Of a stretch of 30,742 nt of DNA, positions 458 through 20,420 are shown one piece after another. The translations under genes were made by a program, and so were the position numbers. Position 1 is the first letter of the stretch. Every line of letters begins with the position of its first letter. Location of the stretch: positions 1-30,742 of IMG/VR virus record IMGVR_UViG_3300037246_000652. One strand, written 5' to 3'. The stretch comes from a virus. The notes under the pieces were generated by a model. That model did not search any database and was not told the DNA's origin. It saw only the letters and a list, made by a program, of their open reading frames with translations.

Positions 458-510
458 GGTTTATGAACAAATGGCAGGAATTACAGGGGGCAATAGGTCC
501 GAGGGTTATT

Positions 511-723: not shown

Positions 724-1339
724 AAGCTTATATGGGGCCGCTAAGAACCCCTCCGATCTCGCTGCCTTGACGAACGATATTATCAAGGATCCTCCTTCGG
801 AACTGAACGAGCGGCAGAGAAGGGTTTTGAACTATCGCTTCCGAGGGCTCACCCAGACAGCTATAGCCAAGCTGGAAGATGTTAGCCAGCCCATGATTGC
901 TAAAGAGATACGCACTATCAAGAAGATATTTGCGGAGCAAGGGCGCACCATTGACCAGGAGCAGGTAGTTGGGGAGTCGGTTAGCCTCTACCAAGAGGTA
1001 GAGCAGCGAGCGTGGGAGATTTACTTCACCCACAAGAAGGAGAAGCCTAGTGCGGCTAATAAAGCTTTAGACACAGTGATGGCTTCGAGGGAAAAGACCG
1101 TGAAGCTACTCATGGACCTTGGCATTATGAAGAAGGCAGCTATCGAGCACGAGCACACGATGAAGGTGGCTCCCTTCTTTGAGCAGTTTGACAGCCTGGA
1201 AGACCAGCAGAAACAGAACGCATTGAGGAATGTCATTGATGTGCATCTGGGAGAACTGGAAGAACCTGAACCACCACAGCTTTTAGCTGACATTGAACCA
1301 GAAGAGGGCGAAGAGGATGACACAGAAGAAGAAAGCTGA
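704..1339 (+). CDS. sigma-region-4-type HTH protein, possible small terminase or regulator
   Basis: A 211-residue protein. Residues about 34-76 read as a helix-turn-helix of the sigma-70 region 4 or LuxR kind: a helix starting LNERQRRVL, then a turn and recognition helix around GLTQTAIAKLEDVSQPMIAKE. A long helical middle (about 85-170) and a strongly acidic tail (last 25 residues) follow. HTH plus central helices plus acidic tail is the plan of many phage small terminase subunits, but the large terminase is in the opposite-strand operon, so a transcription regulator is equally possible. The start at 704 (GAGGAAG upstream) is preferred to an in-frame codon at 665, which has no ribosome site and would add only a Lys/Arg-rich run. 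Confidence 0.7.
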   Translation: MSSKKDKSLYGAAKNPSDLAALTNDIIKDPPSELNERQRRVLNYRFRGLTQTAIAKLEDVSQPMIAKEIRTIKKIFAEQGRTIDQEQVVGESVSLYQEVEQRAWEIYFTHKKEKPSAANKALDTVMASREKTVKLLMDLGIMKKAAIEHEHTMKVAPFFEQFDSLEDQQKQNALRNVIDVHLGELEEPEPPQLLADIEPEEGEEDDTEEES

Positions 1340-1808
1340 ATTCCCCAAGGAGCTAGAGCAGTACGGGCTCAAGGACGTACAGCTTCGCAAGGAGTACTTC
1401 CGCCAGAAGGCAGCAGGTAGCCAGAGCATGGCTGATGAGTACAACGCTCTTGCTGACAAGCTAGACAGCTTTGTGACTCAGGCCAACAAGGAGCGGTTCA
1501 AGCTGGCTCAACAGGGCATGATTCGACTGGACGGCAAGACGGCTGAAGCTTTGATACGGAGAGGGCTAGGAGACACCTGCGGGATTATCCAGGCAGACAC
1601 GAAGCTCCTATGCCGCAAGGACGTGGTTGAGCTACAGCCAGCGCATTGGGCACCTGCTTGGTGCTCCGACATGATTGATGGACTCAAGAAGGCTGGCTTC
1701 AACGCACAGCAACGAGCTAAGTTCTACGACACGGTTATGATTTATAAGGATGACCCCGAGGGCGTACAGTCCGAAGCAGGGCTACTCATCCTGGAAAGGC
1801 AGCTATGA
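1317..1808 (+). CDS. paralogous-family protein A, unknown function
   Basis: 163 residues. ATG 1317 is preceded by AGAGGG at 1303-1308; an in-frame codon at 1293 lies inside the upstream gene and lacks a site. The N-terminal half is helical and charged. Residues about 66-84 contain GMIRLDG followed by EALIRRGL, residues 111-115 read WAPAW, and the protein closes with EAGLLILE at 153-160. The same three blocks in the same order occur in the gene at 2794-3315 and, more diverged, in the gene at 19881-20420. It ends in an ATGA overlap with the next gene. No known family was recognised. The LDG..EALIRRG segment could be a helix-turn-helix but is too short to be sure. Confidence 0.75.
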   Translation: MTQKKKAEFPKELEQYGLKDVQLRKEYFRQKAAGSQSMADEYNALADKLDSFVTQANKERFKLAQQGMIRLDGKTAEALIRRGLGDTCGIIQADTKLLCRKDVVELQPAHWAPAWCSDMIDGLKKAGFNAQQRAKFYDTVMIYKDDPEGVQSEAGLLILERQL

Positions 1809-2248
1809 GCGAACATATACCAGGACGGTTTGTCTTTATCCCAGAGGACGGCAACGAGGCTTACGAGATTGACCTAGATGCTATTTTGGGGGATGCAGCA
1901 GAGCGCATTGCTCTCACTAGGTGGGAACGTGTGAAGGCCTTCTTTCAAAGCTTTAAGAAAGCCTCTGCCGATGGTCTAGTGGAGCACATTACTGCCGAGC
2001 CTCAGAAGGTTAGCCTTCCACAGATGGTTTGCGATAAGCTGGAGGAGCTATTCTCCACAGCAGAATGGTATGCGAGAGACGGGAACAGCAGTTGCTACAT
2101 CTTGGACGTGTACCCGCGTAACCACGCCACAGGCTATGAGCCTATGGTTAGGGTGGCCTTTCTAGGAGGCACAGCTCACGAATTAACGGTAGCTGACCTC
2201 CTTACAGATTATGTGCCTATGGAACCAGCTAAAAAGGAAATGCACTAA
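1805..2248 (+). CDS. unknown protein, 147 aa
   Basis: The start overlaps the previous stop as ATGA, with GGAAAGG just upstream. The protein is acidic at its N-terminus, has an amphipathic Lys/Phe-rich segment around residues 42-52 (RVKAFFQSFKK), and then a mixed alpha/beta part with a Cys-containing strand near residue 98. No motif was recognised. It sits between a paralogous-family gene and a Cys-rich miniprotein, all translationally linked, so it is very likely expressed with them. Confidence 0.7.
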   Translation: MSEHIPGRFVFIPEDGNEAYEIDLDAILGDAAERIALTRWERVKAFFQSFKKASADGLVEHITAEPQKVSLPQMVCDKLEELFSTAEWYARDGNSSCYILDVYPRNHATGYEPMVRVAFLGGTAHELTVADLLTDYVPMEPAKKEMH

Positions 2249-2433
2249 TGTCTGAGGAGAAAGAGTTTATCTGCACGGCCACAGGTGAGCCCTGTAAGTG
2301 TGACAAGAATGGTTGTGTCACTAAACTAGACCCTCGGGATGAAGTGTGTTGCGCATTCGGGCTACGCACGGGCTGTGACTGCAAAGAGACTTCGGGGCCT
2401 GACTTCTGTGACTCTAAGGAGGAGGAGAAATGA
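2248..2433 (+). CDS. Cys-rich miniprotein, probable metal binder
   Basis: 61 residues with nine cysteines at 9, 16, 18, 23, 34, 35, 43, 45 and 54, including two CxC pairs (16/18 and 43/45) and a CC pair. There is no signal peptide, so in a reducing cytoplasm these more likely bind zinc or an iron-sulfur cluster than form disulfides; that is inference. It begins in a TAATG overlap with the gene before it. The next gene starts inside its stop codon, and AAGGAGG near its 3' end serves that next gene. No known family was recognised. Confidence 0.7.
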   Translation: MSEEKEFICTATGEPCKCDKNGCVTKLDPRDEVCCAFGLRTGCDCKETSGPDFCDSKEEEK

Positions 2434-2582
2434 ATATGAAGATACCAGCACTGACTGACCTAGCCAAAGACGTGAAGAAGATAGCCGAGGCCCTAACTAA
2501 GCTCGCTGAGGTAGCTCAGGAGCTAGTGGATAAACAACAGGGGTCTAAGGGGACGGAAAAAGAAGAGGATTTATGGATGTAA
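2430..2582 (+). CDS. coiled-coil miniprotein
   Basis: A 50-residue frame. ATG 2430 overlaps the preceding stop as ATGA, and a very strong ribosome site (AAGGAGGAGG) lies a few bases before it. Residues 8-32 show a clean 3-4 heptad pattern of hydrophobics (L8, L11, V15, I18, L22, L25, V28/A29, L32) with Lys/Glu elsewhere, so a short self-associating coiled coil is likely. A polar charged tail follows. Its 3' end overlaps the start of a two-helix membrane protein by ten bases. It could be that protein's partner, but nothing in the sequence proves contact. Confidence 0.65.
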   Translation: MNMKIPALTDLAKDVKKIAEALTKLAEVAQELVDKQQGSKGTEKEEDLWM

Positions 2583-2794
2583 AACAAACGATCGATCAGA
2601 ACTCACCACTCGGATGGGTCATCACAATGGTTACTATGGCGGGGATCAGCGTGGGTTGGTTCTTCGTCATGGTGAAGTTTTGGCCCTACCACCCGGCCAT
2701 CGGCTGGTCACTGTTCGCTATACCTGTGAGCATCACAGTGCTTCTACCACTCATGTTCGTGGTACGAAAGATTCAGGCCAGAAGGAACAAGTAA
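2573..2794 (+). CDS. two-helix membrane protein, holin-like topology
   Basis: 73 residues with two hydrophobic segments (about 13-35 and 43-64) joined by a short loop, and a basic C-terminal tail ending RKIQARRNK. Length, two helices and a charged tail fit small class II holins, which control lysis timing by opening the inner membrane. However, no endolysin or spanin is recognisable nearby, so any small phage membrane protein would fit. AGAGG precedes ATG 2573. It overlaps the coiled-coil miniprotein upstream, and its stop overlaps the next start (TAATG). Confidence 0.65.
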   Translation: MDVKQTIDQNSPLGWVITMVTMAGISVGWFFVMVKFWPYHPAIGWSLFAIPVSITVLLPLMFVVRKIQARRNK

Positions 2795-3315
2795 TGCGGC
2801 GTAAGAACGACGGGACACTAGGGTTTATCACCAGCAGGCGCTTGAACAACGAGCAGAACTGGCTGGAAACCCGTATTGAACGTGTCAAGAACCAAAGGGG
2901 CTGGTATATAGAAGGAAATCCTTCTGGCTCACAAGCTAAAATCAATGGTATCAGGAAAACCTACCACGAGGTTCCTAAAGCTATAGAGGCAGCCAATGAT
3001 GGCCGCAGAAGGGTCAACGCCAAAGGTCTCTGGCGGCTAGACGGACAATGTGGCAATGCTCTGAAAAGGAGAGGGGTAGATGGCCCGATCGGGGCTGAGT
3101 ACATATGTATAGACTTTTCAGTATTACCAGACAAAGATAAGTGGACGTACACAATAGAGCCTGTGCATGCCTGGTACGCCCCGCAGTGGTTTACTGACTA
3201 CGCTAACCGTATGCGCGACCGCAGACAAATGTATAGGCGCTTCGACAAACTGAAGGATGCTGGCCAAGACGCTATTGACTCTGAGATAGGACTGCTTATA
3301 TTGGGGGAAGTATGA
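2794..3315 (+). CDS. paralogous-family protein B, unknown function
   Basis: 173 residues. ATG 2794 overlaps the previous stop (TAATG), with AGAAGGA upstream; the open frame reaches back to 2614 but that part runs inside the membrane-protein gene. The N-terminal 60 residues are basic, with a GWYIEGNPSG segment that may be a small beta unit. From residue 75 on the protein matches the gene at 1317-1808 block by block: AKGLWRLDG, ALKRRGV, WYAPQW (127-132) and a C-terminal EIGLLILG (164-171). The repeated blocks define a family I do not recognise. It ends in an ATGA overlap. Confidence 0.75.
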   Translation: MRRKNDGTLGFITSRRLNNEQNWLETRIERVKNQRGWYIEGNPSGSQAKINGIRKTYHEVPKAIEAANDGRRRVNAKGLWRLDGQCGNALKRRGVDGPIGAEYICIDFSVLPDKDKWTYTIEPVHAWYAPQWFTDYANRMRDRRQMYRRFDKLKDAGQDAIDSEIGLLILGEV

Positions 3316-3794
3316 AAGACTGGGAACCACCACTACGGCCAGATCCCTGGTACGCACATATATTTAGATTCTTCCTACGAATGAACAGCAGAAAGAGAGC
3401 GGGAATGACTAAGAAAGTAGTAAATATAGTAGAGGACGACGAAGAAGAGTTTCACTGGCGGTATGCCCTCCTAGAGAAGAAGCACGGCGGGGAAACCTAC
3501 TACCATGTGTGCGAGGAGTACCCAGGGTTGGGTTACACCGGAGCGGAGACTCCTATGGGAGATACCCCTGAGGAGCTACAAACTGTGCTAGAAATGATGC
3601 TAGAGGACGTGAAGGGCGCTATCGCTCACAAGAACATTCTTGTGGACGGGGCTCCTTACGATAACTGGCGAGCGAAAGAGTTAGACGAAGGGGAGACTAT
3701 CCCCTGGGACGATGTTAAAGACGATTTGTTCGACGATCTCGACGATATAGGGAACGATCCGACACTTAAGGTAAAGGTAGATGAAGATGAATAA
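3312..3794 (+). CDS. acidic protein, 160 aa, unknown function
   Basis: The start at 3312 is linked to the previous stop (ATGA) and preceded by GGGGGAAG. A second in-frame ATG at 3405 (residue 32) could give a 129-residue form. The first 32 residues are aromatic and basic (PPLRPDPWYAHIFRFFLRM), and the rest is strongly acidic with an Asp-rich C-terminus. The middle has a small alpha/beta domain with YYHVCEEYPGLGYTG. No family was recognised. The contrast between a hydrophobic/basic start and an acidic body may mean that the shorter form is the core product. Confidence 0.65.
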   Translation: MKDWEPPLRPDPWYAHIFRFFLRMNSRKRAGMTKKVVNIVEDDEEEFHWRYALLEKKHGGETYYHVCEEYPGLGYTGAETPMGDTPEELQTVLEMMLEDVKGAIAHKNILVDGAPYDNWRAKELDEGETIPWDDVKDDLFDDLDDIGNDPTLKVKVDEDE

Positions 3795-4257
3795 GAAACA
3801 TGCGGCAGTTGCTGCTCTGGTCCTGCTAGCAGGATTCGTGATCTACAAGGTCAACACGCAAGACAAGCCTGTGCTTATTATTAGCCCAGGCACTGCCGAG
3901 GTGCTTCCTGACCCAGTAATAGAAATCACCACTCCGATAGTAGTTACTCTTGAGAAAGAGCCGTTTCGCCACGGTACAAAGCTTTGTCAGTGGTACGAGG
4001 ATGCAGGTATGCGCGCTGTCTCTGACATGGACGGTTGGGCAGAGTCTACCTGTAGTGGAAATACCTGTTTCCTGCTCGTGCATGATGCTGGGCTACCAGC
4101 TGGTTGGATTATGGCTGCCTGGATTAGTGAAGCAAGGAGCAAAGGACATGACCCGCGTAAAGAAGACGTTGAACTCTCTATATTCACCTTCCGAGGTGGT
4201 AAAGAAGTTGACCACATTGCCTACTTCCCAGGACGCGATGTCTTCGAGTCCTACTAG
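3781..4257 (+). CDS. membrane-anchored exported protein, unknown function
   Basis: 158 residues. A basic start followed by a hydrophobic run (AAVAALVLLAGFVIY, about residues 8-22) forms a signal anchor. No lipobox Cys follows and no clear cleavage site is seen, so a single-span protein with the rest outside the cytoplasm is likely. The outer part has three Cys in a short stretch (KLCQWYED, then STC and NTC), which could form a disulfide. ATG 3781 has AAGG nine bases upstream and ATG 3787 has AAAGG, so the start is uncertain by two residues. It overlaps both neighbours. Confidence 0.65.
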   Translation: MKMNKKHAAVAALVLLAGFVIYKVNTQDKPVLIISPGTAEVLPDPVIEITTPIVVTLEKEPFRHGTKLCQWYEDAGMRAVSDMDGWAESTCSGNTCFLLVHDAGLPAGWIMAAWISEARSKGHDPRKEDVELSIFTFRGGKEVDHIAYFPGRDVFESY

Positions 4258-4507
4258 AGAGCCCTACTACTGTACTCCTGAAGGGCTAGAGATCGAACCG
4301 GAGACGTATTGGCGCATTAACCACGAGGATGGAGATCACTACTTCCGTTTTGTGGAGCTACAGGACAGCGCTGGAGGCCTAGCTGCTACTATCCAAGACG
4401 AGTACGGCTACAGGACGATGGCCCCTGACTTCATGGACTACCTTTCAGTTGACCGGATAACAGAGCCAGAGTTGCTGGCTCTTGTGATGCTCGCTATCCA
4501 CGCATAA
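4238..4507 (+). CDS. unknown protein, 89 aa, last gene of plus operon
   Basis: The real start is most likely ATG 4238 (AGGA at 4230-4233), which overlaps the preceding gene by 20 bases. The frame is open back to 3950, but that extension lies wholly inside the previous gene and reads like a shadow. The protein is acidic, with PETYWRINHEDGDHYFRFVEL suggesting a small beta-sheet domain, and a helical end. No family was recognised. A hairpin terminator begins six bases after its stop. Confidence 0.6.
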   Translation: MSSSPTREPYYCTPEGLEIEPETYWRINHEDGDHYFRFVELQDSAGGLAATIQDEYGYRTMAPDFMDYLSVDRITEPELLALVMLAIHA

Positions 4508-4512
4508 AGAAA

Positions 4513-4542
4513 CGGCCCCCAGGGTACACTTCCTGAGGGCCG
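4513..4542. terminator. hairpin terminator between convergent operons
   Basis: The 11-base arms at 4513-4523 and 4532-4542 are complementary except for one mismatch, with an 8-base loop. On the plus strand it follows the stop at 4507 and is trailed only by a weak T-containing tail (CGTTTGATTGT). Read on the minus strand the stem is followed at once by TTTCTTT, a better U-tract. It sits in the 54-base gap between the converging operons, so it can stop both, with the minus-strand direction looking stronger. Confidence 0.75.
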
Positions 4543-4561
4543 CGTTTGATTGTCGGGTAAG

Positions 4562-4717
4562 TTAGGCGTAAGGGTCGTCTATTACTTCACCATCAATATT
4601 GATTACTTGTTTTCTCAAAAGGCGGTCCTCCCTAGCTTCAGGCTTAGGGTCGGCCGCTTTTTTCTCTTTTGGCTCTTCTTCGGAATCCCCGAACAGGTCA
4701 ATCAAGATGTTCGCCAT
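4562..4717 (-). CDS. small charged protein, 51 aa, last gene of minus operon
   Basis: I chose the ATG at 4717 (AAGAGAG upstream) over a codon at 4771 that lies inside the neighbouring gene. The N-terminus MANILIDLFGDSEEEP is followed by a Lys/Glu/Ala-rich middle and an acidic end (VINIDGEVIDDPYA). The short hydrophobic-acidic start and charged middle look disordered with peptide-like motifs at the ends. No family was recognised. It is the final gene before the shared terminator. Confidence 0.55.
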   Translation of the reverse strand: MANILIDLFGDSEEEPKEKKAADPKPEAREDRLLRKQVINIDGEVIDDPYA

Positions 4718-4820
4718 AATCTCTCTTTCTACTGAGGTGATGTATGCCCCACACAACAAAGGGTGGTGCAAAGATAAGGCACATAAGAAAAGTTATTACG
4801 TCTGTTATCAGAATGGCCAC
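4698..4820 (-). CDS. small single-span membrane protein, 40 aa (GTG start proposed)
   Basis: The frame from GTG 4820 gives a hydrophobic helix (residues 2-25, LITDVITFLMCLIFAPPFVV) and a basic tail, ending inside the next gene. The frame is open further upstream to a GTG at 4961, but that part overlaps a better-supported microgene and has no ribosome site. The GTG overlaps the end of that microgene, so coupled translation is the likely route. The small size and weak site make this tentative. Confidence 0.4.
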   Translation of the reverse strand: MAILITDVITFLMCLIFAPPFVVWGIHHLSRKRDYGEHLD

Positions 4821-4915
4821 CAGCTGTACTCGGACGCCAATGCGCCGTAAAGCAGTATGGCAGAGCCTAGGGGAAGGACAAGCATTAGTATCTTGTCTTT
4901 TAGTGAAAGCTTCAT
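4808..4915 (-). CDS. hydrophobic microprotein, 35 aa
   Basis: The ATG at 4915 follows AAGGAG by ten bases. The product has a basic N-terminus (MKLSLKDK), one hydrophobic helix (about residues 9-28, ILMLVLPLGSAILLYGAL) and a short aromatic end (SEYSWWPF). The clear ribosome site and sensible membrane topology support it. It lies in a cluster of tiny overlapping genes before the terminator; such clusters in phages often hold lysis or superinfection-exclusion membrane peptides, but no family was recognised. Confidence 0.5.
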   Translation of the reverse strand: MKLSLKDKILMLVLPLGSAILLYGALASEYSWWPF

Positions 4916-4933
4916 GAAGGTTGATCTCCTTAG

Positions 4934-4981
4934 TTAAAGAACAATCTTCAGTATAGCCCACAAAGCAGTAACACGCAGCAT
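4934..4981 (-). CDS. possible 15-residue peptide filling the gap
   Basis: The ATG at 4981 overlaps the stop of the upstream gene as TAATG, the same junction used at many places in this operon. The frame runs 15 hydrophobic-leaning codons (MLRVTALWAILKIVL) to a TAA just before the ribosome site of the next gene. It has no ribosome site of its own and could be chance; if translated it may serve only to carry ribosomes to the next start. Confidence 0.25.
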   Translation of the reverse strand: MLRVTALWAILKIVL

Positions 4982-5244
4982 TACTTTGAAGACGTTATGA
5001 TAAGTCTATTAAGCTCCTTGTTGAGCTTGCGAATCTCGGTTTCCCCGTCCCTTCTATCCTTGGTTATCTTCCTGATTCCTCCGACGACAGACATTCTGTC
5101 AAAATCGGGTCCAGCATTGTTTACCTCGTGACGGATCTCGAAAAGCTGAGTCCGGAGGTTTCTAACTTCGTCCAGAAGGCGGTCTACCACTGCCTCTGAC
5201 TGGTCGGGAGTATTATCTTTGTGATTCTTGGGGGTGGTGGTCAT
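4981..5244 (-). CDS. coiled-coil protein, unknown function
   Basis: 87 residues from ATG 5244. An in-frame GTG at 5295 would add 17 residues and neither start has a good ribosome site, so the start is uncertain. An AGGAGG lies inside the longer version with no standard start codon after it. After a polar Thr/Asn/Lys-rich head, residues about 16-43 form a likely coiled coil (VVDRLLDEVRNLRTQLFEI), followed by a second basic helix near the C-terminus. It could be a small structural or scaffold-type protein; no family was recognised. Confidence 0.55.
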   Translation of the reverse strand: MTTTPKNHKDNTPDQSEAVVDRLLDEVRNLRTQLFEIRHEVNNAGPDFDRMSVVGGIRKITKDRRDGETEIRKLNKELNRLIITSSK

Positions 5245-5316
5245 GGTTGGCTTGAAGTCCGCTATATGCCCCCTCCTAGGCCCCGCAATGGGCACCTCTG
5301 AGCAGGTCAGTGAAGG

Positions 5317-5559
5317 TTAGATTTCGTACACATCCCCATTCTCATCACATTTCTCATCTTCGTAGGGCGCGGCTATTCTACGATACAACTCTAACTTCGC
5401 GCATTCCAGCACACCTACTATACTATTAAGTGTGGCATAATTTAGGCCCTCACGCAAGATGTACTCATTTATGAGTGTAGAGATCAGGTAGTTAAGCTCA
5501 CCCGGAGTCTCCGCTATCATGGTAGGTCCTAGCCTATCTTCTTGTTTAATGTATGGCAT
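5317..5559 (-). CDS. conserved small phage protein (DUF6899-like)
   Basis: 80 residues. The pattern MPYIKQEDR, then GELNYLI, a Tyr-containing helix, [23 protein letters not shown], and an end [16 protein letters not shown] matches from memory a conserved small phage family of unknown function that I recall as DUF6899. The pattern match is strong; the family number is less certain. The protein is mostly helical with no catalytic motif. It overlaps the HNH gene upstream by one base and lies on the terminator side of the packaging genes. Confidence 0.75.
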
Positions 5560-6038
5560 TAGAAACGATTCCCCTTTTGTAGATTCTCTCTTGCTGTTAA
5601 GTACTGTAAGTTCTCTATGACGTGAAGTCCAGACACGTTCTCACCTTTTAGTGGAACAATGTGATCCACATGGAAACCATCTGGGCAGTTTCTGTAAAAC
5701 AAATTGATGGCTTCTGTGTCAGCCCACGCCGGAATTCTCGACTGCTTGTCTGCACGACGTGCCATGTTGCGCGCTAGCTTAGCTGACAGGTTTCGTTTGT
5801 CGTACTCTTTTTGGCGTTGCGCAGCGCGTTCGCGGTTTGCTTCATAGTAAGCTCGCCTGTACTCAGCACGAGCCACTGGATCCCTCTCTTTGTATCTACG
5901 CTTTTCTGCAGCTAGAAGTTTCTCCCTGTTCTCAACATAGTACGCCCTCAACTTCTTTTTGTTCTTCTGCCTGTAAGCCTTCTGATAATCCTTACGATAT
6001 TCAGGATCTTTCCATTTTGGATGTGTATATGTTTTCAC
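5559..6038 (-). CDS. HNH endonuclease
   Basis: 159 residues. The long, very basic helical N-terminal region (about 1-105, rich in Arg, Lys, Tyr and Ala) probably binds DNA. The C-terminal 45 residues carry the HNH fold: HVDHIVPL (H123, D125, H126), then GLHVIENLQ (H139, N143) and ENLQKGN (N152). No zinc CxxC pairs are seen. HNH nucleases are often encoded next to phage terminase genes and can be needed for the packaging cut. Here it lies directly downstream of the large terminase, 18 bases away, so either a packaging role or a homing role is possible. Confidence 0.85.
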
Positions 6039-6056
6039 GAGACGTTATACCAGCAT

Positions 6057-7790
6057 TTAGGCGAAGGTGAAGATAGTCTGTCTCTTCAGCCTTTCAAGAG
6101 CTACGTTACAATAGTTTAATGCATGCGCATAGTGTGGGTCGCCCCCACCATACACCCACCTCCAGCGCCCATCACCCGTTTCCTCGTTGGTTTCATGGAA
6201 ATTCTTGGTCAACCTAGTAAGGTGGTCGAACAGTCGTCTGGTGGGTTCCATTGGGGTCAGTAGGTTTGTCTTTTCATCAAAGGCCATTTGTCTAAGCCTA
6301 TCAGGATCAGGGATGACATAGCCTCCCGACTTCAGCTCGCCAAACATGTAATCAAGAGAAGAGAATCTAGCCACGCTGCAAGTGTGCTTAAATTTCAAAA
6401 GTGGCCCAGCTTTTCTCACAGTCTCTTTTACCTTCTTGCGGTCATTCCACTGCACGATCTCTTTGGCATCCTGCGAGTAGTAGGCAAGGAAGACACGGCC
6501 TGGGAACTGACTGGCGAACTGGAGGGCATCATTGACGTTAGGCATGGCATCAACCACTCCTAGCGCAATGTTGTACTCCCTCATGATCTCAGCCAGCCTG
6601 TTGAACGGACTAACCAATGCTCCGTCAGGTCCACGGTAAGAGGGGTTGTGCTGCTCGATAATCTCTGTGTGGCGGATACGCTTCTTTCCCTCTTTCAGGT
6701 CGGAGACGATGACGTACAAGTAACCAGCTCCCTGGTCCACTCCCATAGCACAGCGCGTTGTGGGCTTGTTGGGCTCTGCCCAAGGGAGATCCTCGTTTAT
6801 CAAAGCTTTAAGCTGAGGCAGGGTGACGCCTACGTTCTCAGCATCCACGTAAGGTAGACCGAGCTTAGCATTATAGAACTCAGCCTTGTTTGTCGTCCTC
6901 TTCCAGAAGTCCCAAATCTCTTTGGCAGTAATAAACTGGGACACAAGCTGAGACACATGGTAGCTGTTGTAGTCTGCACCAGGATTGTGGGATTCATATC
7001 GCCCATTCTGCGGGTTCTTGATCTCATACTTACACTTAGGACAGCGCAGGTAGACCTCATCAGGACGCCTGGGGTCATCCGCTATAACACAGTCAGGGAA
7101 GGTACGGGCTAGGTTGCACCCATCAGGGCAACCACACTTCGCCATCCACTGATACTGGCGACCAAGGTTGAACCTCATGTCGATGTTAGACCCAGGTAAA
7201 CCTGTAGTAGAAGCGAACAGCTTCATCTTGTATGGAGAGTGAGCGATACGTTCCATTGTCTGGTCGATATCCTTATCGCTACACAGACGAATCTCGTCGA
7301 AGCTAACGTAGTCAAGAGGAACCGAGTCCTTTGCGGACTTACCCCCTAGGTGTAGAAGATAGAAAGACGACTTTCCAATCTTGCGTAGCCCCAGCTTATC
7401 GTTGACATCAGATATCTCAGCAATAGGAGGCACAGACTGCATGAGCGGGGTGAGGCGGTCAGCGGAGGTGTTGTCTACAAGCTCCTTGTTGGGCATGTAG
7501 AGGCCCGCTTTACGTCCTGGGTGAGCATGTAGCCACCACAGGATCCTGAGCATCATCCACACTGTAGCACCCATCTGTGCTGCTTTAGCAAGCACAACCT
7601 CGGTAGACTGGTCGGCGTAGACGGGCAACAAATACCTATGCTTCTCGAACTCCACGGGGTTGTTATCTACCTCGGCTCCATGAGCCAGGCACCACAACGG
7701 GAAGCTATCCTTCGCTAGGTGCTTCAAATCCTCAACGGTAATGTCCTCTGGCCGTATGATAGGAGACGGTGTATGAATCTCAATAGTCAT
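6057..7790 (-). CDS. terL: terminase large subunit, GpA type
   Basis: 577 residues. It pumps DNA into the prohead with an N-terminal ATPase and cuts it with a C-terminal nuclease. A Walker-A-like loop (KAAQMGAT, 69-76; the usual GKT is modified, as in lambda gpA) is followed by Walker B LDYVSFDEI (D165, E166). A Cys cluster (C219, C221, C225, C234, C250, C253) between the two domains probably binds zinc. Nuclease acidic residues are in GVDQGAG (D352), GVVDAMPN (D414) and a C-terminal GGDPHYAHALNY. Length fits the family. It starts inside the end of the small gene upstream (11-base overlap). Portal and capsid genes are not in the window. Confidence 0.93.
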   Translation of the reverse strand: MTIEIHTPSPIIRPEDITVEDLKHLAKDSFPLWCLAHGAEVDNNPVEFEKHRYLLPVYADQSTEVVLAKAAQMGATVWMMLRILWWLHAHPGRKAGLYMPNKELVDNTSADRLTPLMQSVPPIAEISDVNDKLGLRKIGKSSFYLLHLGGKSAKDSVPLDYVSFDEIRLCSDKDIDQTMERIAHSPYKMKLFASTTGLPGSNIDMRFNLGRQYQWMAKCGCPDGCNLARTFPDCVIADDPRRPDEVYLRCPKCKYEIKNPQNGRYESHNPGADYNSYHVSQLVSQFITAKEIWDFWKRTTNKAEFYNAKLGLPYVDAENVGVTLPQLKALINEDLPWAEPNKPTTRCAMGVDQGAGYLYVIVSDLKEGKKRIRHTEIIEQHNPSYRGPDGALVSPFNRLAEIMREYNIALGVVDAMPNVNDALQFASQFPGRVFLAYYSQDAKEIVQWNDRKKVKETVRKAGPLLKFKHTCSVARFSSLDYMFGELKSGGYVIPDPDRLRQMAFDEKTNLLTPMEPTRRLFDHLTRLTKNFHETNEETGDGRWRWVYGGGDPHYAHALNYCNVALERLKRQTIFTFA

Positions 7791-8052
7791 AGATTACGAA
7801 CTTCTCTTCTATACGTTCTTCTACTTCGTCCATTGTGTACCACCAGTCCATTTTGTGGTGCGCGGTACCACGACAGATACTCCACACAAACTTAGGGTGT
7901 AGCACGCTGCCATCACTGTACTTCTTGCCTATACTACGCAGGAACCACACAGGAACCATAAGGGTCCAGCGATTGCGCCAAAGCTTTATGTGCCACGGCT
8001 GATTCTGATACCTATGAGCTAGGACTTCTTTTGTTGGCCATTCTTCTTCCAT
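7780..8052 (-). CDS. unknown protein between ParB-like and terminase genes
   Basis: 90 residues, rich in aromatic and basic residues: ten Trp, several in pairs with Arg or Lys (WHIKLWRNRW, DWWYT), and an acidic helix near the end (MDEVEERIEEKF). It is not clearly membrane-spanning, since the hydrophobic part around residues 30-40 is short. It starts in a TAATG overlap with the ParB-like gene and overlaps the terminase start by 11 bases, so it is tightly co-translated with packaging genes. No family was recognised. Confidence 0.65.
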   Translation of the reverse strand: MEEEWPTKEVLAHRYQNQPWHIKLWRNRWTLMVPVWFLRSIGKKYSDGSVLHPKFVWSICRGTAHHKMDWWYTMDEVEERIEEKFVIYDY

Positions 8053-8882
8053 TAGAACTCCTCGGGCTTGTCTAGGTCAACAGAGCCTTTTTCGATAACT
8101 TCCTCTGTCTCACCCTCAGGTATCATATTACTGGCATCTATGCCAATAGTCAATAACCCTCCTAGCACGACATTTATGTCAAGGTGGTTGCCTATGCAGT
8201 ACTCTGCCACGGTGGTCAGGCTTCTTACAAGTGCAGGGGTGGCAGCCACAAACATATGGTTCCTGCCCCCGGCGGGGAAAACGAGGAAGCTGTAGGGAAC
8301 GGTGTCCCCGTGCTCTTCGAAGATAGTAGAAAGCACTAACCCAAGGTCATCAACCATGTTGATAGCGGGGGCGCTAGACTGGCGTTCTTCCGCAGCATCT
8401 CGGGCTACCTGCTCTAGGCGCTCGTTCTCCTCTTTGTAGAATGCCATAAAGGTATCAACATCCGAAAAGCCCATAGACTCTCGGATCTCGTCCACACTAA
8501 TCTCTTGCTCTGCTGACAAAGCGTTGACTGCGATGGTAAAGGCATCTTTGTCGATGGCACCACGAACGTAGTTTCTACGAACCAGCTCGATCTGCTGCTG
8601 AACCTCGTCCCAGTCGCCTCGCACGACACAAGGGAACTCATCCATTCCCTCTTCGGAGCCCGCTCTGTAACGGTGGTTGCCCGCCACGATCCAGTAGCCA
8701 TCATTCCCGTCATCCCTAGGGACGACAGTTACAGTCTCATCGAAACCGTTCTCTCGGATGCTCTCTCGAAGCTCCTTAAACATGTGTCTAGACTGCTTGT
8801 TAGAGTTTCGTGGGTGCTCTTCCAAAAGCTCCCTTGAAATCATAACTGGCAAATGCACTGCTACCTTGTTCTTCTTGGTCAT
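8052..8882 (-). CDS. ParB/Srx-type nuclease-domain protein
   Basis: 276 residues. Residues about 8-95 match the ParB N-terminal fold: an opening strand, HPRNSNKQSRHMFKELRESIRENGF, a strand with VTVVPRD, then the signature GNHRYRAG (68-75) and a closing strand. This fold binds CTP or ATP in partition proteins and acts as a nuclease in some phage and plasmid proteins. A helical middle (about 95-165) may be a DNA-binding part, and the C-terminal half is a separate, unrecognised domain. The position two genes before the large terminase suggests a DNA-handling or packaging role rather than plasmid partition; no ParA is visible. Confidence 0.8.
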   Translation of the reverse strand: MTKKNKVAVHLPVMISRELLEEHPRNSNKQSRHMFKELRESIRENGFDETVTVVPRDDGNDGYWIVAGNHRYRAGSEEGMDEFPCVVRGDWDEVQQQIELVRRNYVRGAIDKDAFTIAVNALSAEQEISVDEIRESMGFSDVDTFMAFYKEENERLEQVARDAAEERQSSAPAINMVDDLGLVLSTIFEEHGDTVPYSFLVFPAGGRNHMFVAATPALVRSLTTVAEYCIGNHLDINVVLGGLLTIGIDASNMIPEGETEEVIEKGSVDLDKPEEF

Positions 8883-9733
8883 AGTATCTTGTTTACCTTA
8901 GTAAGTGCCTTCGAAGAGACACAAATGTACGAGTTTTCTACCTTCTCAGCTATTGGGTACTCTGGCTCTTCAGAATACCTACGTTTAACTTCTTCCAGCT
9001 TGAACAGAGGAAACACCCCAACCACAGCTTCAATGTTGTGGGAGGCCAGGGTTGCCACAGCTCTGCGGGAGTTGGGCACCTTGACCCACTCCAGCGGCTC
9101 GATGCAGTCAAGCTTAATCTCTATGACCGCTTTCTCGGCTAGAAGCTCGGGCAGCCCTCCTCCGAGGCCCATGACCCCTGAAGCTACCTGCTTTAGCTGC
9201 TTCACCTGCATGGCATAGCCGTGGATAATGAACCCACCTGCACCGCAAAGAGGGGTCAGGTCGAAGATATTGAACGTGCAACACAGGTCGTCTTCGCCTA
9301 AGTCTTTATGAGGAACCAATCTGGAGTCCATGATACTGGGGAGGTCCTGAACCATCTCCAGCAACTCTGGCCGAATGGGATTGCCAAATGGCCGATTGAA
9401 AAGGACAACTGGCACCTTCTCCTCTTCTTCCATCAAGGACAATGACTCACTAAGCTGCTCTACATCCATCTGCAGAGTTTCTTCATCTATATCAAGCAAA
9501 AGTGGGTATGAGCCCGAACGGAGTACGGCGCTAAGCGTATCCGGGGCTGAGGTCACTGGCATAATAACTGCAGTATCGTCCGTTCTTGTACCTAGAAGCT
9601 CTAGGCAAGATTGGACCGCAACCTGCACTGAGGCGGTAGCGCACGAATACTTAGGAGCTATGAGCTTCTCTAAAGCTGTAAGCCATGCTTTAGAGTGCCA
9701 ATCCTCTAGGTATAGAGTTGTTTTTGTCCCCAT
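8879..9733 (-). CDS. DegT/DnrJ aminotransferase-like protein without the catalytic Lys
   Basis: 284 residues from ATG 9733; a GTG at 9748 would add five. The order matches PLP-dependent sugar aminotransferases of the DegT family: YSCATASVQVAVQSCLELLG for the helix that holds the cofactor, AVIMPVTSAPDTLSAVLRSG, LLLDIDEETLQMDVEQL, VPVVLFNRPFG, and an Asp in IMDSR where the pyridine-contacting Asp belongs. The following FNIFDLTPLCGAGGFI lines up with the FSF.PTKN..TGEGG segment, but the Schiff-base Lys position is Leu (about residue 159). It is also shorter than the usual 360-390 residues. A loss of aminotransferase activity is likely. It sits between a winged-helix-like gene and the ParB-like gene. 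Confidence 0.75.
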   Translation of the reverse strand: MGTKTTLYLEDWHSKAWLTALEKLIAPKYSCATASVQVAVQSCLELLGTRTDDTAVIMPVTSAPDTLSAVLRSGSYPLLLDIDEETLQMDVEQLSESLSLMEEEEKVPVVLFNRPFGNPIRPELLEMVQDLPSIMDSRLVPHKDLGEDDLCCTFNIFDLTPLCGAGGFIIHGYAMQVKQLKQVASGVMGLGGGLPELLAEKAVIEIKLDCIEPLEWVKVPNSRRAVATLASHNIEAVVGVFPLFKLEEVKRRYSEEPEYPIAEKVENSYICVSSKALTKVNKIL

Positions 9734-9740
9734 ATTGCTT

Positions 9741-9950
9741 CTACTCACTCTCGGAGAGTCTATACCACTGTCCTCGTTCGTTCTTGTAGAGGTAGTGGTT
9801 CTTCAAAAGGCTAGACAAGACACCACGAAGCGTCTTGTCGTCCAGTCCCGTTGCCCTTCTAATGTCTTCAACGAAGAATAGAGCTTCTTCTTCTAAAGCA
9901 TCTATGACCTTGGGTCCGTGCTTTATCTTCTCAATCGGTTTTTGTCTCAT
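9741..9950 (-). CDS. small winged-helix-like DNA-binding protein
   Basis: 69 residues. After a basic N-terminus come three helices (about 14-22, 26-34 and 38-51, the last two reading FFVEDIRRATGLDDKTLRGVLSSLLK) and a beta hairpin (HYLYKNERGQWYRL), the layout of a MarR/ROK-type winged helix. It probably binds DNA as a regulator, though some winged helices bind proteins. It follows the RNase HII gene in an ATGA overlap. No named family can be assigned. Confidence 0.65.
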   Translation of the reverse strand: MRQKPIEKIKHGPKVIDALEEEALFFVEDIRRATGLDDKTLRGVLSSLLKNHYLYKNERGQWYRLSESE

Positions 9951-10612
9951 GATCCTTTTTCTTTATACCATCCCTGTTTATCGTAGGCTTTGCGAACCCT
10001 TTCAATGTTCATTCTGTGCAAACCTCTGATAGGCCCCAAGTCTTCGAGGAGCCGAAGATGCTCTGGGGTGGGATATCCTTTAGACTTGTCAAAATGCCAA
10101 GCAGCAGGCTGGGCTTTAACCATAATCCTATCTCTGTCTCTTTTGGCAATGATAGAGGCAGCGGATACTGCCGGAATGAAATCATCAGCCTTCACTAAGG
10201 CTGTGTGAGGGATGTCTAAACCCTCTACGGTCTGATCACCATCTAAGATGTAAAGTCCATCATCCCCGAACTTGTCGTACATATGCTCTAGCGCAGCTTT
10301 ATACAGGGCGGTAAGAGCTTCTCCGTGTCCTTGCTTTTGAATCTCGTTAGGGTAAGCCATGAAGGCTTTGTACTCAATAGCATGGGTGATTACCATCTGG
10401 TAGGCTTTTTCACGAGCACCATCCGAGGAGTATCTCTTGGAGTCCTTCACCTTTTCGGCAAAGTCTAGCTCCAGGGCGCACGCACCTACGCAAAGAGGTC
10501 CAGCGATAGCGCCATTCCCCGTCTCGTCAAACCCTACAATTACTTTAGGCGTGTGCTCCAGAAGTAGGTCCACGTACTTCTGATAGTCAGCATATAACGT
10601 CGCCTCTGTCAT
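9947..10612 (-). CDS. rnhB: ribonuclease HII
   Basis: 221 residues, the usual length. It cleaves the RNA strand of RNA-DNA hybrids and single ribonucleotides in DNA. The family blocks are present in order: VGFDETGNGAIAGPL with D29 and E30, an ILDGDQTV strand with D124, KADDFIPAVSAASIIAKRDRDR with D161 as the likely last metal ligand, and KGYPTPEHL followed by GLHR. All four acidic residues are kept, so it should be active. It sits in the packaging/structural operon rather than with the polymerase, joined to both neighbours by ATGA overlaps. Likely roles are primer removal and clearing R-loops. Confidence 0.9.
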   Translation of the reverse strand: MTEATLYADYQKYVDLLLEHTPKVIVGFDETGNGAIAGPLCVGACALELDFAEKVKDSKRYSSDGAREKAYQMVITHAIEYKAFMAYPNEIQKQGHGEALTALYKAALEHMYDKFGDDGLYILDGDQTVEGLDIPHTALVKADDFIPAVSAASIIAKRDRDRIMVKAQPAAWHFDKSKGYPTPEHLRLLEDLGPIRGLHRMNIERVRKAYDKQGWYKEKGS

Positions 10613-11070: not shown

Positions 11071-12728
11071 TATTGTCTCGTAACTCGGACAGAGCCAGCA
11101 ACTGGTACGTTGTCCTCAATAAGCTGACTAATAGAACCTGCGGTTCTGCCGGTCTTGGACACGGTAAGAACTGCTGCAGGATCTAGACCAAGTATGCGCC
11201 ATGTCTCAAGTAGCTGGGTCTGTTGGTCAACGGTAAGGCCAACCCCGGAACTAAGTGTAGTAACGATAGACGCAAGGTCCTCCAGAATCTTGCCACCCAT
11301 CTGGGTGTTGTCGGAGTAGCTTGCCGTAGCAGCTTCCCACACAGCATCAGCAATGTCAAGCAGATCTGAGGGGTTTAGGGTAGTTCCTGTGCTATCGAGG
11401 AGTTTACCACCCATTTCGGCAGTAAGACCATCATAGTCAACGACGGCGGCCTTCCACACAGCATCGGCTGTCTCAGCTGCTGAAAGAGAAGCAACATTTG
11501 CGATGTCATCCTGAAGCTTGCCACCCATTTCGAGAGTGTTGGTGTAGCCTGCAGCGACTGCTTCCCAAACGGCGTCCGCTGTCTCTGCCACTGTCAAAGG
11601 CGTGTCGAGAATGTCAGCCTTGAGCTTGCCACCCATCTGGCCCTGGTCGGTGTAGGCGCTCTGAGTAGCTTCCCACACTGCATCCGCTGTTTCATCAACA
11701 GTCAAAGGTGTATCCAGAATGTCAGCCTTGAGCTTGCCACCCATCTGGAGCGTGTCTATGTAGCTTGCGGCTGTAGCCTGCCATACTGCATCTGCTACCT
11801 CAGCCTGAGAGATACCTGCGTTAGAAAGGTCATCGAGGATACGACCGCCCATTTCGAGAGTGTCTGTGTAGGCTGCTGCGGCGGCTTCCCACACAGCGTC
11901 CGCTGTTTCATCAACAGTCAAAGGCGTGCTGAGAATGTCATCCTGAAGCTTGCCACCCATTTGAGCTGTGTTCGAGTAACCTGCGGCAACTGCTTCCCAA
12001 ACGGCGTCCGCTGTCTCTGCCTCAGTCAAAGGTGTGCTGAGAATGTCATCCTTGAGCTTACCACCCATCTGGAGGGTGTCAGTATAGCTCGCAGCGGTGG
12101 CTTCCCACACTGCATCAGCAACTTCACCCGCGTTGATTCCGCCGTCCAGAAGCTTACCACCCATCTCGGTAGTCAACCCTACGTAGGCAGAAATCGGAGC
12201 CTTCCAGATGTCGTCTGGTATCCCATCAAAGTCCGCAAGGATTCGGCCACCCATCCAGGTTCCGGTTCCTTCGTAGTCTGTGACTGTAGCCTCCCAAACA
12301 GCATCTGCCGTTTCTTGAGCAGTGAGACCTCCGCCTCCTCCTCCTCCACCTGCGACCTGCTCAACCAACGTGGAAACCTTGAAGGTATAGTTGATTTGAA
12401 AATCACCTAAGGTGCCAACAACAGGGCTATCACCAGCGGGGACCGTGAAGATGTTTCCTTCAAGGATGAGGTTATGGTCGTACTCTGCAGCACGAATCTT
12501 CCAAGGGAATAAAAGGAAAAAGGTAGAACCCAAGTTCTCTGTACCAGAGATGGGCTCACCGCCGACAACAGCGAACGCTTGAGGGAATCTCTTTCGACTC
12601 GCATCCGCAAGAAGCCAGTCCTTCCATTCCGAGTAAATCTCGCGAATAGAGAGCGTGTTTACATCCAGAGCGGAGTTGATCTCGATTATCCTAAGATTAA
12701 TCGGATCGAATGTAACAATGTCAGGCAT
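11070..12728 (-). CDS. repeat-built phage structural protein
   Basis: 552 residues. The N-terminal domain (about 1-125, with IYSEWKDWLL, FAVVGGEPISGTENLG and FQINYTFKVSTLVEQV) looks like a conserved phage virion module. An eight-Gly linker (127-134) follows, then ten imperfect repeats of about 35 residues (139-486), each with a core like ADAVWEA, a Tyr-containing middle and MGGKL or MGGRI. The tail has LTVDQQTQLLETWRILGLDPA and ends in VRVTRQ, a closing seen in other phage proteins. The likely role is a fibre or baseplate/neck-associated component. The repeat number is a candidate for length variation. Confidence 0.8.
   Translation of the reverse strand: MPDIVTFDPINLRIIEINSALDVNTLSIREIYSEWKDWLLADASRKRFPQAFAVVGGEPISGTENLGSTFFLLFPWKIRAAEYDHNLILEGNIFTVPAGDSPVVGTLGDFQINYTFKVSTLVEQVAGGGGGGGGLTAQETADAVWEATVTDYEGTGTWMGGRILADFDGIPDDIWKAPISAYVGLTTEMGGKLLDGGINAGEVADAVWEATAASYTDTLQMGGKLKDDILSTPLTEAETADAVWEAVAAGYSNTAQMGGKLQDDILSTPLTVDETADAVWEAAAAAYTDTLEMGGRILDDLSNAGISQAEVADAVWQATAASYIDTLQMGGKLKADILDTPLTVDETADAVWEATQSAYTDQGQMGGKLKADILDTPLTVAETADAVWEAVAAGYTNTLEMGGKLQDDIANVASLSAAETADAVWKAAVVDYDGLTAEMGGKLLDSTGTTLNPSDLLDIADAVWEAATASYSDNTQMGGKILEDLASIVTTLSSGVGLTVDQQTQLLETWRILGLDPAAVLTVSKTGRTAGSISQLIEDNVPVAGSVRVTRQ
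11271..12314 (-). repeat. ten imperfect coding repeats of about 105 bases
   Basis: Within the fibre-type gene, a unit encoding ADAVWEA..AxYtdt..MGGKL(k/q)DDIL.TPLT recurs ten times. Units 3-8 are the closest to each other, while units 1, 2, 9 and 10 are more diverged. Several neighbouring copies share long identical DNA stretches, so unequal recombination or slippage could change copy number. Confidence 0.85.
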
Positions 12729-12731
12729 AGT

Positions 12732-15137: not shown

Positions 15138-15141
15138 AATA

Positions 15142-17655: not shown

Positions 17656-17735
17656 GTTAGTTCCTTATCTGTGATCTGTGCTGAAAAGCCAAAACAAGAC
17701 TGGCCGCTTATACGTTGGGCATTGTCTTGCTTGTA

Positions 17736-17983: not shown

Positions 17984-17999
17984 CTAAAGGACCTCCTAT

Positions 18000-18028
18000 A
18001 TTTTACCACGAGAACTCGTAATAAACAA
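18000..18028 (-). promoter_or_regulatory. possible weak promoter with a palindrome in the spacer
   Basis: On the minus strand TTGTTT (18023-18028) and TAAAAT (18000-18005) are 17 bases apart, and TGG before the -10 gives an extended -10 form. The spacer contains the inverted repeat ACGAG-TT-CTCGT, which could bind a repressor. Against it, the start would fall inside the ribosome site of the gene at 17983, so this is only a candidate. Confidence 0.3.
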
Positions 18029-18036
18029 GTAATACG

Positions 18037-18489
18037 CTACCTATTTGCAAGATATTCTTGGTGGGGAACAACTTCTCCGGTCTCCTGGATGAGGAAGCCC
18101 CAATCCTTATCCTTGTTGCCTGAGCAGAAGAGAGTCCAAGCACCCTTGCTGGTGTCCACCAGACTGACCCTGTGGAAATCGTTGCCCGAGAGCAGGTTGA
18201 GGCTTCCTGGTCCCTTTCGTCTGGTTTCAATAGTATTACCCACCAGGCGCTCCTCATCGTAGCCGCCAGTTAGGATGAGGCTGAAAGACCACATCCAGGG
18301 GTGGTTGTGAAGCTCCCTGTCCTGGTCCCCTTGGAAGAACCTATGGAGGTAGATCCCTGGGAACACGCCATTGTGCTTGATGTAGAAGCGCAGTAGGTAT
18401 TCTTCGCCGTAGTTGCTGATGATGCGGCTACGAGAAGGAAACTGCGTAACCAGGCTCCAGCACAGTCTGTCAATGAAGATCTCGATCAT
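18037..18489 (-). CDS. cupin-like phage protein
   Basis: 150 residues. The start is ATG 18489 in an ATGA overlap with the epimerase-like gene; a longer frame to 18582 is a shadow. The core IYLHRFFQGDQDRELHNHPWMWSFSLILTGGYDEER and a later GPGSLNLLSGNDFHRV form the two cupin strands with candidate metal ligands H49, H61, H63 and H106. It matches from memory a phage/bacterial cupin family of unknown function with the LHRF..SD.DR.LHDHPW signature. The following AWTLFCSGNKDKDWGF is also typical. It probably binds a metal; the substrate is unknown. Coupling to an SDR gene hints at a sugar-related role. Confidence 0.75.
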   Translation of the reverse strand: MIEIFIDRLCWSLVTQFPSRSRIISNYGEEYLLRFYIKHNGVFPGIYLHRFFQGDQDRELHNHPWMWSFSLILTGGYDEERLVGNTIETRRKGPGSLNLLSGNDFHRVSLVDTSKGAWTLFCSGNKDKDWGFLIQETGEVVPHQEYLANR

Positions 18490-19265
18490 TCCTGCACCAT
18501 TTTGAACAACCCTGACCTCAGGGAGGTTTTGGGTGCCCATCCTATTGTTTTGTGAAGCTTTATGATTCTTGGGACTTCCCACTCAGCGAATACCTCAGTA
18601 TACGGCTGAAGAATCTCGGGCTCTGTGTCCGCTCCATTGACGAACTTCCATATATTACGGAGGAGGTTGATGTACGTCACAGCCTCACCCGACCCGACAT
18701 TGAACACACCGTGTGCCCTCTTAGCCAACAACAGGTCAACCGCCTTGAGGAAGTCGTCCTGGTGTATAAAGGAGGTGGATGCGCCAAGCCTTCTAGGGTT
18801 GGTCAGCGGTTCGTTCCTCTTAGAGGATATGATGGTCTCGTGGATAAGGCCCCAAGTAATATCAGGGCCGTACACGTTGAAGGGCCTAACAATAGTGGTA
18901 AAGCCCTCTCGGTTCCAGAACAGGTGCTCTGCGGCTATAGCATAGATGCAGGTGCTCCTGAGGATAGCTGAAGCCGAAGGGTGGATGCCTAGAAACGCGG
19001 CCTCTCTAACGTCCTCCTCTGCAAGAACGGGGTCTGTGGTGGAGAGTAGCAGGACGGGCTTATCACTCACCTGCATCTTCTGTAGCTCAAGCTGAGCTAG
19101 AGGAGGGTTGACCTCATTGGTGATCTCAGCCCCTATCAGGCAGAAATCCGGGTCCTCGTCCCAAGGCACAAGCGCAAGCCCTCTACTAATGAAGTGGTTT
19201 CTAACCAGCCCCAATAGCGGGTGATTCCCGGCTAGAGTAAACTTTATCCTACCCTTCAGACTCAC
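18486..19265 (-). CDS. NAD-dependent epimerase/dehydratase-like protein, divergent
   Basis: 259 residues from GTG 19265, which overlaps the previous stop as GTGA. The middle and C-terminal parts are clearly of the extended SDR family that acts on nucleotide sugars: TTIVRPFNVYGPD (123-135), TSFIHQDDFLKAVDLLL (164-180) and HGVFNVGSGEAVTYINLL (185-202). The N-terminal nucleotide loop reads LAGNHPLLG (11-19) instead of GxxGxxG, and the family YxxxK pair is missing: STCIYAIAAEHL (104-115) has no Lys four after any Tyr. It is also about 60 residues shorter than family members. Ordinary epimerase activity is doubtful; it may bind a nucleotide sugar without turnover. Confidence 0.75.
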   Translation of the reverse strand: MSLKGRIKFTLAGNHPLLGLVRNHFISRGLALVPWDEDPDFCLIGAEITNEVNPPLAQLELQKMQVSDKPVLLLSTTDPVLAEEDVREAAFLGIHPSASAILRSTCIYAIAAEHLFWNREGFTTIVRPFNVYGPDITWGLIHETIISSKRNEPLTNPRRLGASTSFIHQDDFLKAVDLLLAKRAHGVFNVGSGEAVTYINLLRNIWKFVNGADTEPEILQPYTEVFAEWEVPRIIKLHKTIGWAPKTSLRSGLFKMVQE

Positions 19266-19369
19266 TTCTTTAGCTCATTCTTCTCACAGGTACAAACTAG
19301 GATGATCTTCCCACACTCTTCGCACCTAGGAAGCTCGTCTTCTATTTGCTTTTTGGTTTTCTTTCCCAT
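19262..19369 (-). CDS. two-pair Cys microprotein, 35 aa
   Basis: The frame from ATG 19369 to TGA 19262 has a basic start (MGKKTKKQIEDELPR) and then CEEC (16-19) and CTC (26-28) separated by a short strand, which is a likely zinc ribbon or knuckle. It starts inside the end of the nuclease gene (28-base overlap), and its stop overlaps the GTG start of the epimerase-like gene as GTGA, so it fills the gap exactly. The ribosome site is weak (AAAGAAG). No family was recognised. Confidence 0.55.
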   Translation of the reverse strand: MGKKTKKQIEDELPRCEECGKIILVCTCEKNELKK

Positions 19370-19881
19370 AACTTCTTTGGCTCCTCTAATAGATCATCAA
19401 ACAATCGGATATAAGCTGACTCTCCCTGCCTATCGGTAACTCGGATAGGTGAACCTTTAATGAAGTTCACTTGGGCAGGAGTAGCGGTATAGCGGTCCCG
19501 CATCATCACGAACCACGGGTTTCTGTTTCTCTTGAACACCAGCAGGGTGAGCCTGCCTTCTGCGGTTTCACGTTTTGCTTGCTCCCACCACTCCCAGAAC
19601 TTACTCTGGGGCGAGGTTAGGATATGGTCTAGAGTCCATTCCTCCTGCCACTTCACCTCTACAGAGAAGGGGAAGGTCTCGTCGGGGGTCACTACGTCAC
19701 CCTCGGCATTCCAGTCCTCTCGGAACTTCTTAGTTTTGAATCCACCTGAGCTGGGGGTTCTGGCAAAGTCAGACTTCCACCAATCCTTTAGGAGAGCGCA
19801 AACTTGGTTCTCGCCCCTTCCTCCCTTGTCTCTGGAGTTGATTCCTTTTCTCGTACTCTTAGGTCTTGGTGCATCTGCCAT
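19342..19881 (-). CDS. PD-(D/E)XK nuclease, resolvase-like
   Basis: 179 residues. The blocks fit the PD-(D/E)XK fold of archaeal-type Holliday-junction resolvases: RGENQVCALLKDW with E24 on the first helix, GDVV with D62, and FSVEVKW with E75 and K77 as the catalytic strand. A later LLVFKRNRNPWFVMM forms the next strand pair. The N-terminus is basic. It likely cuts branched DNA, useful for clearing the products of the recombination genes to the right before packaging. It starts in a TAATG overlap with the zinc-finger gene. Confidence 0.75.
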   Translation of the reverse strand: MADAPRPKSTRKGINSRDKGGRGENQVCALLKDWWKSDFARTPSSGGFKTKKFREDWNAEGDVVTPDETFPFSVEVKWQEEWTLDHILTSPQSKFWEWWEQAKRETAEGRLTLLVFKRNRNPWFVMMRDRYTATPAQVNFIKGSPIRVTDRQGESAYIRLFDDLLEEPKKLWERKPKSK

Positions 19882-20420
19882 TAGCCGTACATTCCTAACA
19901 TTATGAGACCAATCTCTCGGTCTCTCTCGTCCTGAGACAAATCGTCCAGGGCTTCTAACAGGGCGTAAGCCTTGCGGCTGTATCCCGCATCATTGTGCTG
20001 ATTCCAGATCCTGTAGACCCACTCGTGTACCCAATACTCCGGGAGCACCGTACAGTCTATGTCTGTGTGTATAAGCTTAGTTTTGGCCATCTCTAGGCCG
20101 CACATCTTTTCTAGGTTTCTTCTGAAGAGCGCGGAGGCAACATTCTTGACTACTGGAGCCTTGCCTTTGGAACGCATGCGCTCCTGCTCTTTCTTCGTAG
20201 CCTCTTTCAGAGGACGAGACTGCTGGGTGAGTTTACACTTCTCACTTCCAGCGTGCATACGCAATCCTGCGGGAGTGAGGTACACTCCGCATTCAGTACA
20301 CACAACGGGTGGTGGGGAGGGTCTATCCACCGGAGTCTTCTTCGCTGTTTGTTGCCACCCCTTGTTGAGGTTCCACCTCGGCCCTGGACGAGGGTTCGAA
20401 TACTGTCCTGTGACTGCCAT
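19881..20420 (-). CDS. paralogous-family protein C with zinc finger
   Basis: 179 residues from ATG 20420 (GGAAAAG upstream); a GTG at 20468 would add 16. A polar Pro-rich head is followed by a C2HC zinc finger CTECGVYLTPAGLRMHAGSEKC (C41, C44, H56, C62). The second half repeats the blocks of the plus-strand genes at 1317 and 2794, more weakly: SALFRRNL (97-103), EYWVHEW (128-134) and a closing REIGLIMLG (168-176). The finger suggests DNA, RNA or protein binding. The 5' end overlaps the homing-type endonuclease gene by about 98 bases, so their ends are shared. Confidence 0.7.
   Translation of the reverse strand: MAVTGQYSNPRPGPRWNLNKGWQQTAKKTPVDRPSPPPVVCTECGVYLTPAGLRMHAGSEKCKLTQQSRPLKEATKKEQERMRSKGKAPVVKNVASALFRRNLEKMCGLEMAKTKLIHTDIDCTVLPEYWVHEWVYRIWNQHNDAGYSRKAYALLEALDDLSQDERDREIGLIMLGMYG

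Follow-up and report, generated by a model that had tools for sequence, protein, structure and literature searches.

Why would one phage carry three genes that end in the same small domain, in two operons and with different N-terminal parts? The question is raised by the window, the whole stretch of viral DNA analyzed here (30,742 nucleotides, IMG/VR record IMGVR_UViG_3300037246_000652), for which a first-pass annotation had proposed such a family. The three open frames are present as described, the first two (P1 and P2) on the plus strand and the third (P3) on the minus strand (Table 1).

The limits of P3 had to be revised. The start proposed earlier, at position 20420, is not conserved in relatives and would give a 98-nt overlap with the neighboring HNH gene; in AlphaFold2, pLDDT stays below 50 over residues 1–32 when this longer form is modeled. 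The relatives place the P3 start codon on the stop codon of the HNH gene (ATGATTAG in L010, ATGAGTAG in L002, GTGCCTAG in L020, and, in frame, ATGACGATTAG in L021), and the same junction reads GTGGATAG in the window. Hence, P3 is taken to start at the GTG codon at 20330. P1 shares 23 nt with the helix-turn-helix (HTH) gene upstream of it and 4 nt with the gene that follows.

Table 1. Family members, their parts, and adjoining genes in the window
Feature	Positions	Strand	Remarks
P1, member 1	1317..1808	+	163 aa; basic helical N-part (residues 1–66), core 67–163
P1 shared core (GMIRLDG...GLLILERQL)	1515..1805	+	Core-only shuffle test, hhalign
P2, member 2	2794..3315	+	173 aa; N-part with a strong net positive charge (+9), core
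P2 shared core (GLWRLDG...GLLILGEV)	3025..3312	+	Core-only shuffle test
P3, member 3	19881..20330	-	149 aa from GTG 20330; C2HC zinc finger, basic helix, and core
P3 C2HC zinc finger (VVCTECGVYLTPAGLRMHAGSEKC)	20235..20306	-	Ligands invariant in aligned orthologs
P3 shared core (GKAPVVKNVASALFRRN...GLIMLGMYG)	19884..20165	-	AlphaFold2 model, hhalign, core-only shuffle test
HTH protein, adjoins P1	665..1339	+	Sigma-70 region-4-like (E = 0.004); PHROG 645 (E = 1.4e-5)
HNH endonuclease, adjoins P3	20323..20997	-	phrog_3377 (E = 1.8e-46); stop codon overlaps P3 start
PDDEXK endonuclease, adjoins P3	19342..19881	-	PF24608 (E = 1.7e-32); RusA-like PHROG 244

A Constant Core and Three N-Terminal Parts

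The three genes are paralogous, as had been proposed. Pairwise Smith-Waterman scores between full-length members (113, 84, and 95) far exceed the shuffled means of about 29, and none of 2,000 shuffles reached the observed values (Gumbel p = 3e-11, 1.6e-7, and 1.9e-8). When the proteins are split at a conserved glycine, the cores remain significantly similar (p = 3.6e-9, 2.6e-7, and 1.9e-8) and the N-terminal parts are not (p = 0.24, 0.04, and 0.53, window sequences, uncorrected). Hence, the similarity ends where the core begins, and the N-terminal parts do differ, as was first noticed. Profile–profile comparison, whose failure had been named beforehand as grounds to reject the family, matched all three pairings: hhalign gave 96.8% (E = 2.4e-10) for the P1 group and P2, 95.4% (E = 1.8e-8) for the P1 and P3 groups, and 83.5% (E = 8e-6) for the P3 group and P2. 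A family profile run over the window and its relatives retrieved the members at E ≤ 1.1e-51 (E ≤ 4e-56 for P1, P2, and P3 of the window), the best nonmember having E = 0.64. Because this profile was built from these same members, the independent support comes from the shuffle tests, from hhalign, and from single-sequence phmmer searches, which retrieved only family members among all frames of the window and the first relatives up to E = 1. The profile search found no fourth member in the window or in the relatives G001 and G002.

The shared core spans about 95 residues and is C-terminal in all three proteins. Eight of its positions are invariant among 11 aligned sequences (G67, A78, R82, G89, W115, G155, L156, and L159 in P1 numbering). 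The motifs by which the family was first recognized are less uniform. RLDG is present in P1 and P2 and replaced by PVVKN in P3, which also departs from ALxRRG (it reads ALFRRN); the tryptophan block reads WAPAW, YAPQW, and WVHEW in P1, P2, and P3, so that only its second tryptophan is invariant. The closing block, E(A/I)GL(L/I)(I/M)L, is found in all three. The zinc finger reported for P3 was also recovered, with its four ligands (C-x2-C-x11-H-x5-C) conserved in all aligned P3 orthologs; it resembles C2HC/C2H2-like fingers in its GLxxHxGSxxC pattern. It is present in this member only, as a predicted head outside the shared domain, and the heads of P1 and P2 are not recognizable domains. The three genes form a true lineage-specific family that combines a single constant module with heads unrelated to one another. 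The reading that we favor, with a probability of about 0.4, makes the core a module for docking or assembly that has been kept with three different heads since before the phage group diverged.

Conservation and Divergence of the Three Positions

Members were found on eight IMG/VR contigs (L001/G003, L002/G004, G001 of 34.4 kb, G002 of 39.0 kb, G005, G006, G007, and G008). The large terminase subunits (TerL) of G001 and G002 are 86% identical to that of the window, and each of these contigs has exactly three members, positioned as in the window: P1 and P2 on the strand opposite TerL, P3 upstream of TerL and on the same strand. Since both relatives that cover the two loci have all three members, the triplication is a stable feature. 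In each of the remaining six contigs a single member was found, the zinc-finger member P3. These contigs are fragments; the P1/P2 locus was found in none of them, nor was the HTH gene that adjoins P1 in the three that were tested, and their lack of P1 and P2 therefore says little.

The three positions evolve at different rates. The P1 ortholog at the same position of G001 (locus L006) is 62% identical (dN/dS about 0.21) and the P3 ortholog of G001 is 64% identical (dN/dS about 0.13), both genes being under purifying selection. P2 is only 27% identical to its positional counterpart (L006:14702-15193), whereas five neighbors in the same operon are 49%–63% identical, which makes it the fastest-evolving slot of its operon neighborhood between the window and G001. 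Its core is no nearer to the core of the counterpart than to the core of P1, and no similarity is detectable between their N-terminal parts. In the phylogenetic tree each positional class occupies one side of a branch, the branches of P1 and P3 being supported by 93/91 and 83/91 and that of P2 only weakly, by 74/77. Identity, dN/dS, and tree together indicate that P1 and P3 are both ancient and under constraint. P2 may be an ortholog that evolves fast, or its slot may have been refilled. The same region shows a displaced pair of small genes (MSEEKEFIC... and MKIPALTDLAKDVK...), which follow P1 in the window (2248-2570, +) and lie on the opposite side of the HTH gene in G001 (L006 17193-17870), suggesting local gene shuffling around the P1/P2 locus.

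One could regard these genes as products of plain duplication and divergence, with unrelated jobs in their own operons and a common scaffold but no common target. Paralogous cores are only about 27%–35% identical in the hhalign alignments, P2 has diverged so fast that it resembles its counterpart no more than either resembles P1, and the gene neighborhoods differ, all of which one would expect from such a history. We nevertheless consider it unlikely, because the three copies are present in all three records that cover both loci (the window, G001, and G002) and because all paralogs keep one set of invariant core positions, which suggests a retained common constraint, although fold stability alone could explain the latter. 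If the cores do share no partner, the family would be a case of duplication with head replacement.

Predicted Fold and Comparison with Known Domains

AlphaFold2 models were obtained for P1 (mean pLDDT 82, pTM 0.70) and P3 (mean pLDDT 74, pTM 0.58) from input alignments of only 10–11 sequences. Both have the same order of elements: a long helix, a short strand, a helix, a two-stranded hairpin, and three helices. P1 and P3 thus agree in the order of secondary structure, the level at which these two models were compared. Foldseek found no significant relative (E ≤ 0.001) for P1 in the PDB or for P3 in the PDB and BFVD, every match having E > 0.6; given the shallow alignments behind the models, this is a moderate rather than a strong negative.

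The helix-strand-helix-β hairpin order of the P1 and P3 models recalls the winged helix-turn-helix. The core might then be a degenerate DNA-binding domain of this kind, and the proteins sequence-specific regulators or DNA-recognition factors (in transcription or in the choice of packaging or replication sites), with heads that set dimerization or specificity. The nonsignificant Foldseek matches include TFIIE, HSF1, and phage HTH or AntA proteins, and P1 adjoins an HTH protein as P3 adjoins nucleases, in keeping with such a role. However, a proper recognition helix is missing from the P1 model and only four residues long in that of P3 (both of moderate confidence), no significant fold match was obtained, and no member matches any HTH family of Pfam or NCBIfam at E ≤ 10. 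The cores are also near-neutral to slightly acidic, with net charges of -1, -1, and -2 in P1, P2, and P3 (and +1 in the P2 core of G001), against +3, +9, and +5 for the N-terminal parts. Although net charge predicts binding poorly, any affinity for nucleic acids would more likely be found in the heads than in the cores. A winged-helix core seems to us somewhat improbable on balance.

The architecture also resembles that of the domain-shuffled phage regulators. AntA/AntB, Rha, KilA-N/KilA-C, ANT, and Bro-N are small modules that occur with varied N-terminal partners and in several copies per viral genome, and here too one module has different N-terminal partners. However, no member matches the Pfam or NCBIfam models of AntA/AntB, Rha, KilA-N, KilA-C/ANT, or Bro-N at E ≤ 10, and the sole structural hint is a nonsignificant BFVD match to AntA/AntB (E = 0.63, probability 0.25). 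The zinc-finger half of P3 weakly matches phrog_16925, a family of unknown function, the best E being 2e-4 among the six aligned family members that show this similarity; the match spans profile positions 4–75 of 151, i.e., the finger and the following helix and not the core.

No family of Pfam, PHROGs, or NCBIfam matched the core of any member above noise, and the PDB gave no significant match to the members by sequence. With the three members and one P3 ortholog as queries, tblastn matched none of 50,697 phage genomes at cutoffs of E = 1 or 10, and positions 1–12000 of the window had no megablast match among phages. Two pattern scans of bacterial and archaeal genomes, which reach close relatives only, found no member. 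The family profile did not match six phages with distant TerL homologs, a weak negative since this set holds no positive control. A search of the literature on terminases, winged helices, and zinc fingers in combination likewise gave no match. The core adds a domain family unmatched in the libraries of sequences and folds that were searched.

Genomic Contexts and a Possible Role of the Core

The HTH protein next to P1 is conserved in G001 and G002, and the PDDEXK gene accompanies P3 in L001, L002, and L010. By its context, the HTH protein might be small-terminase-like, a weak assignment. The start/stop overlaps (HTH protein with P1; HNH gene with P3 and P3 with the PDDEXK gene) hint, as adjacency can, at packaging and nuclease contexts. 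The proteins could accordingly assist, as accessory factors, in packaging or processing the DNA: P1 would act with the small-terminase-like protein, P3 would guide the HNH and PDDEXK nucleases to phage DNA, and P2 would serve another packaging or lysis step. The overlaps and their conservation in relatives are what speaks for this role, and they amount to adjacency; the small-terminase label of 665-1339 is itself weak, TerL is on the other strand and in another operon, and the gene directly upstream of P2 is not the same in the window and G001. Such a role is the least probable of those considered here.

Since the core has no structural relative in the PDB or BFVD, it is charge, hydrophobic pattern, and architecture that point to a docking module. 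Under this preferred reading, one module of about 95 residues would have existed in three copies before the phage group diverged, and the three different heads would have been retained. Three elements would make up the docking surface: the long helix, the aromatic WxxxW block of hairpin and helix, and the last helix, which is hydrophobic (ExGLLxL). The core would bind to itself or to a partner, from phage or host, that the three proteins have in common. The heads are basic overall, with the zinc finger in P3, and would bring nucleic acid or a context-specific partner; from sequence features we infer that they bind nucleic acids in at least P3. P1 would be coproduced with the HTH small-terminase-like protein, and P3 with the HNH and PDDEXK nucleases; P2 occupies a fast-changing slot. 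The earlier suggestion that the three proteins bind a shared target in different contexts fits this scheme and is a reasonable hypothesis. If the cores do share a partner, a compact phage would be reusing one docking surface in two operons. A bolder version, which we hold to be unlikely, sees in the core a phage interaction domain not described before, a plug that can be interchanged: the three differently headed proteins would compete for, or assemble on, one socket of a phage machine, and the P2 slot would be a cassette, its head being exchanged or evolving at high speed between relatives. One and the same core, joined to three unrelated heads within a small genome and conserved across relatives, provides a clean natural experiment.

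Other genes of the window were observed in passing. A ribonuclease HII is encoded at 9947-10612 (-; PF01351, E = 7.7e-20), and RecA-, DNA polymerase I-, and SbcCD-like genes were recognized by sequence, not by search. The gene at 11070-12728 (-) codes for a putative structural protein of 552 residues with many imperfect ETADAVWEA...MGGKL repeats and no good match in PHROGs. The TerL of the window has 577 residues; its distant homologs in phages Touem01 and ST4 (L033 and L034) lie in frames of about 870 residues, with about 210 extra residues before the match. Finally, the group at 18037-19265 and 8879-9748 (-) includes a cupin/cysteine-dioxygenase-like protein (phrog_4786, E = 1.3e-30), an NAD-epimerase-like protein identified by eye, and a DegT/DnrJ-type aminotransferase (PF01041, E = 1.2e-7), possibly sugar-modification genes in a small phage.
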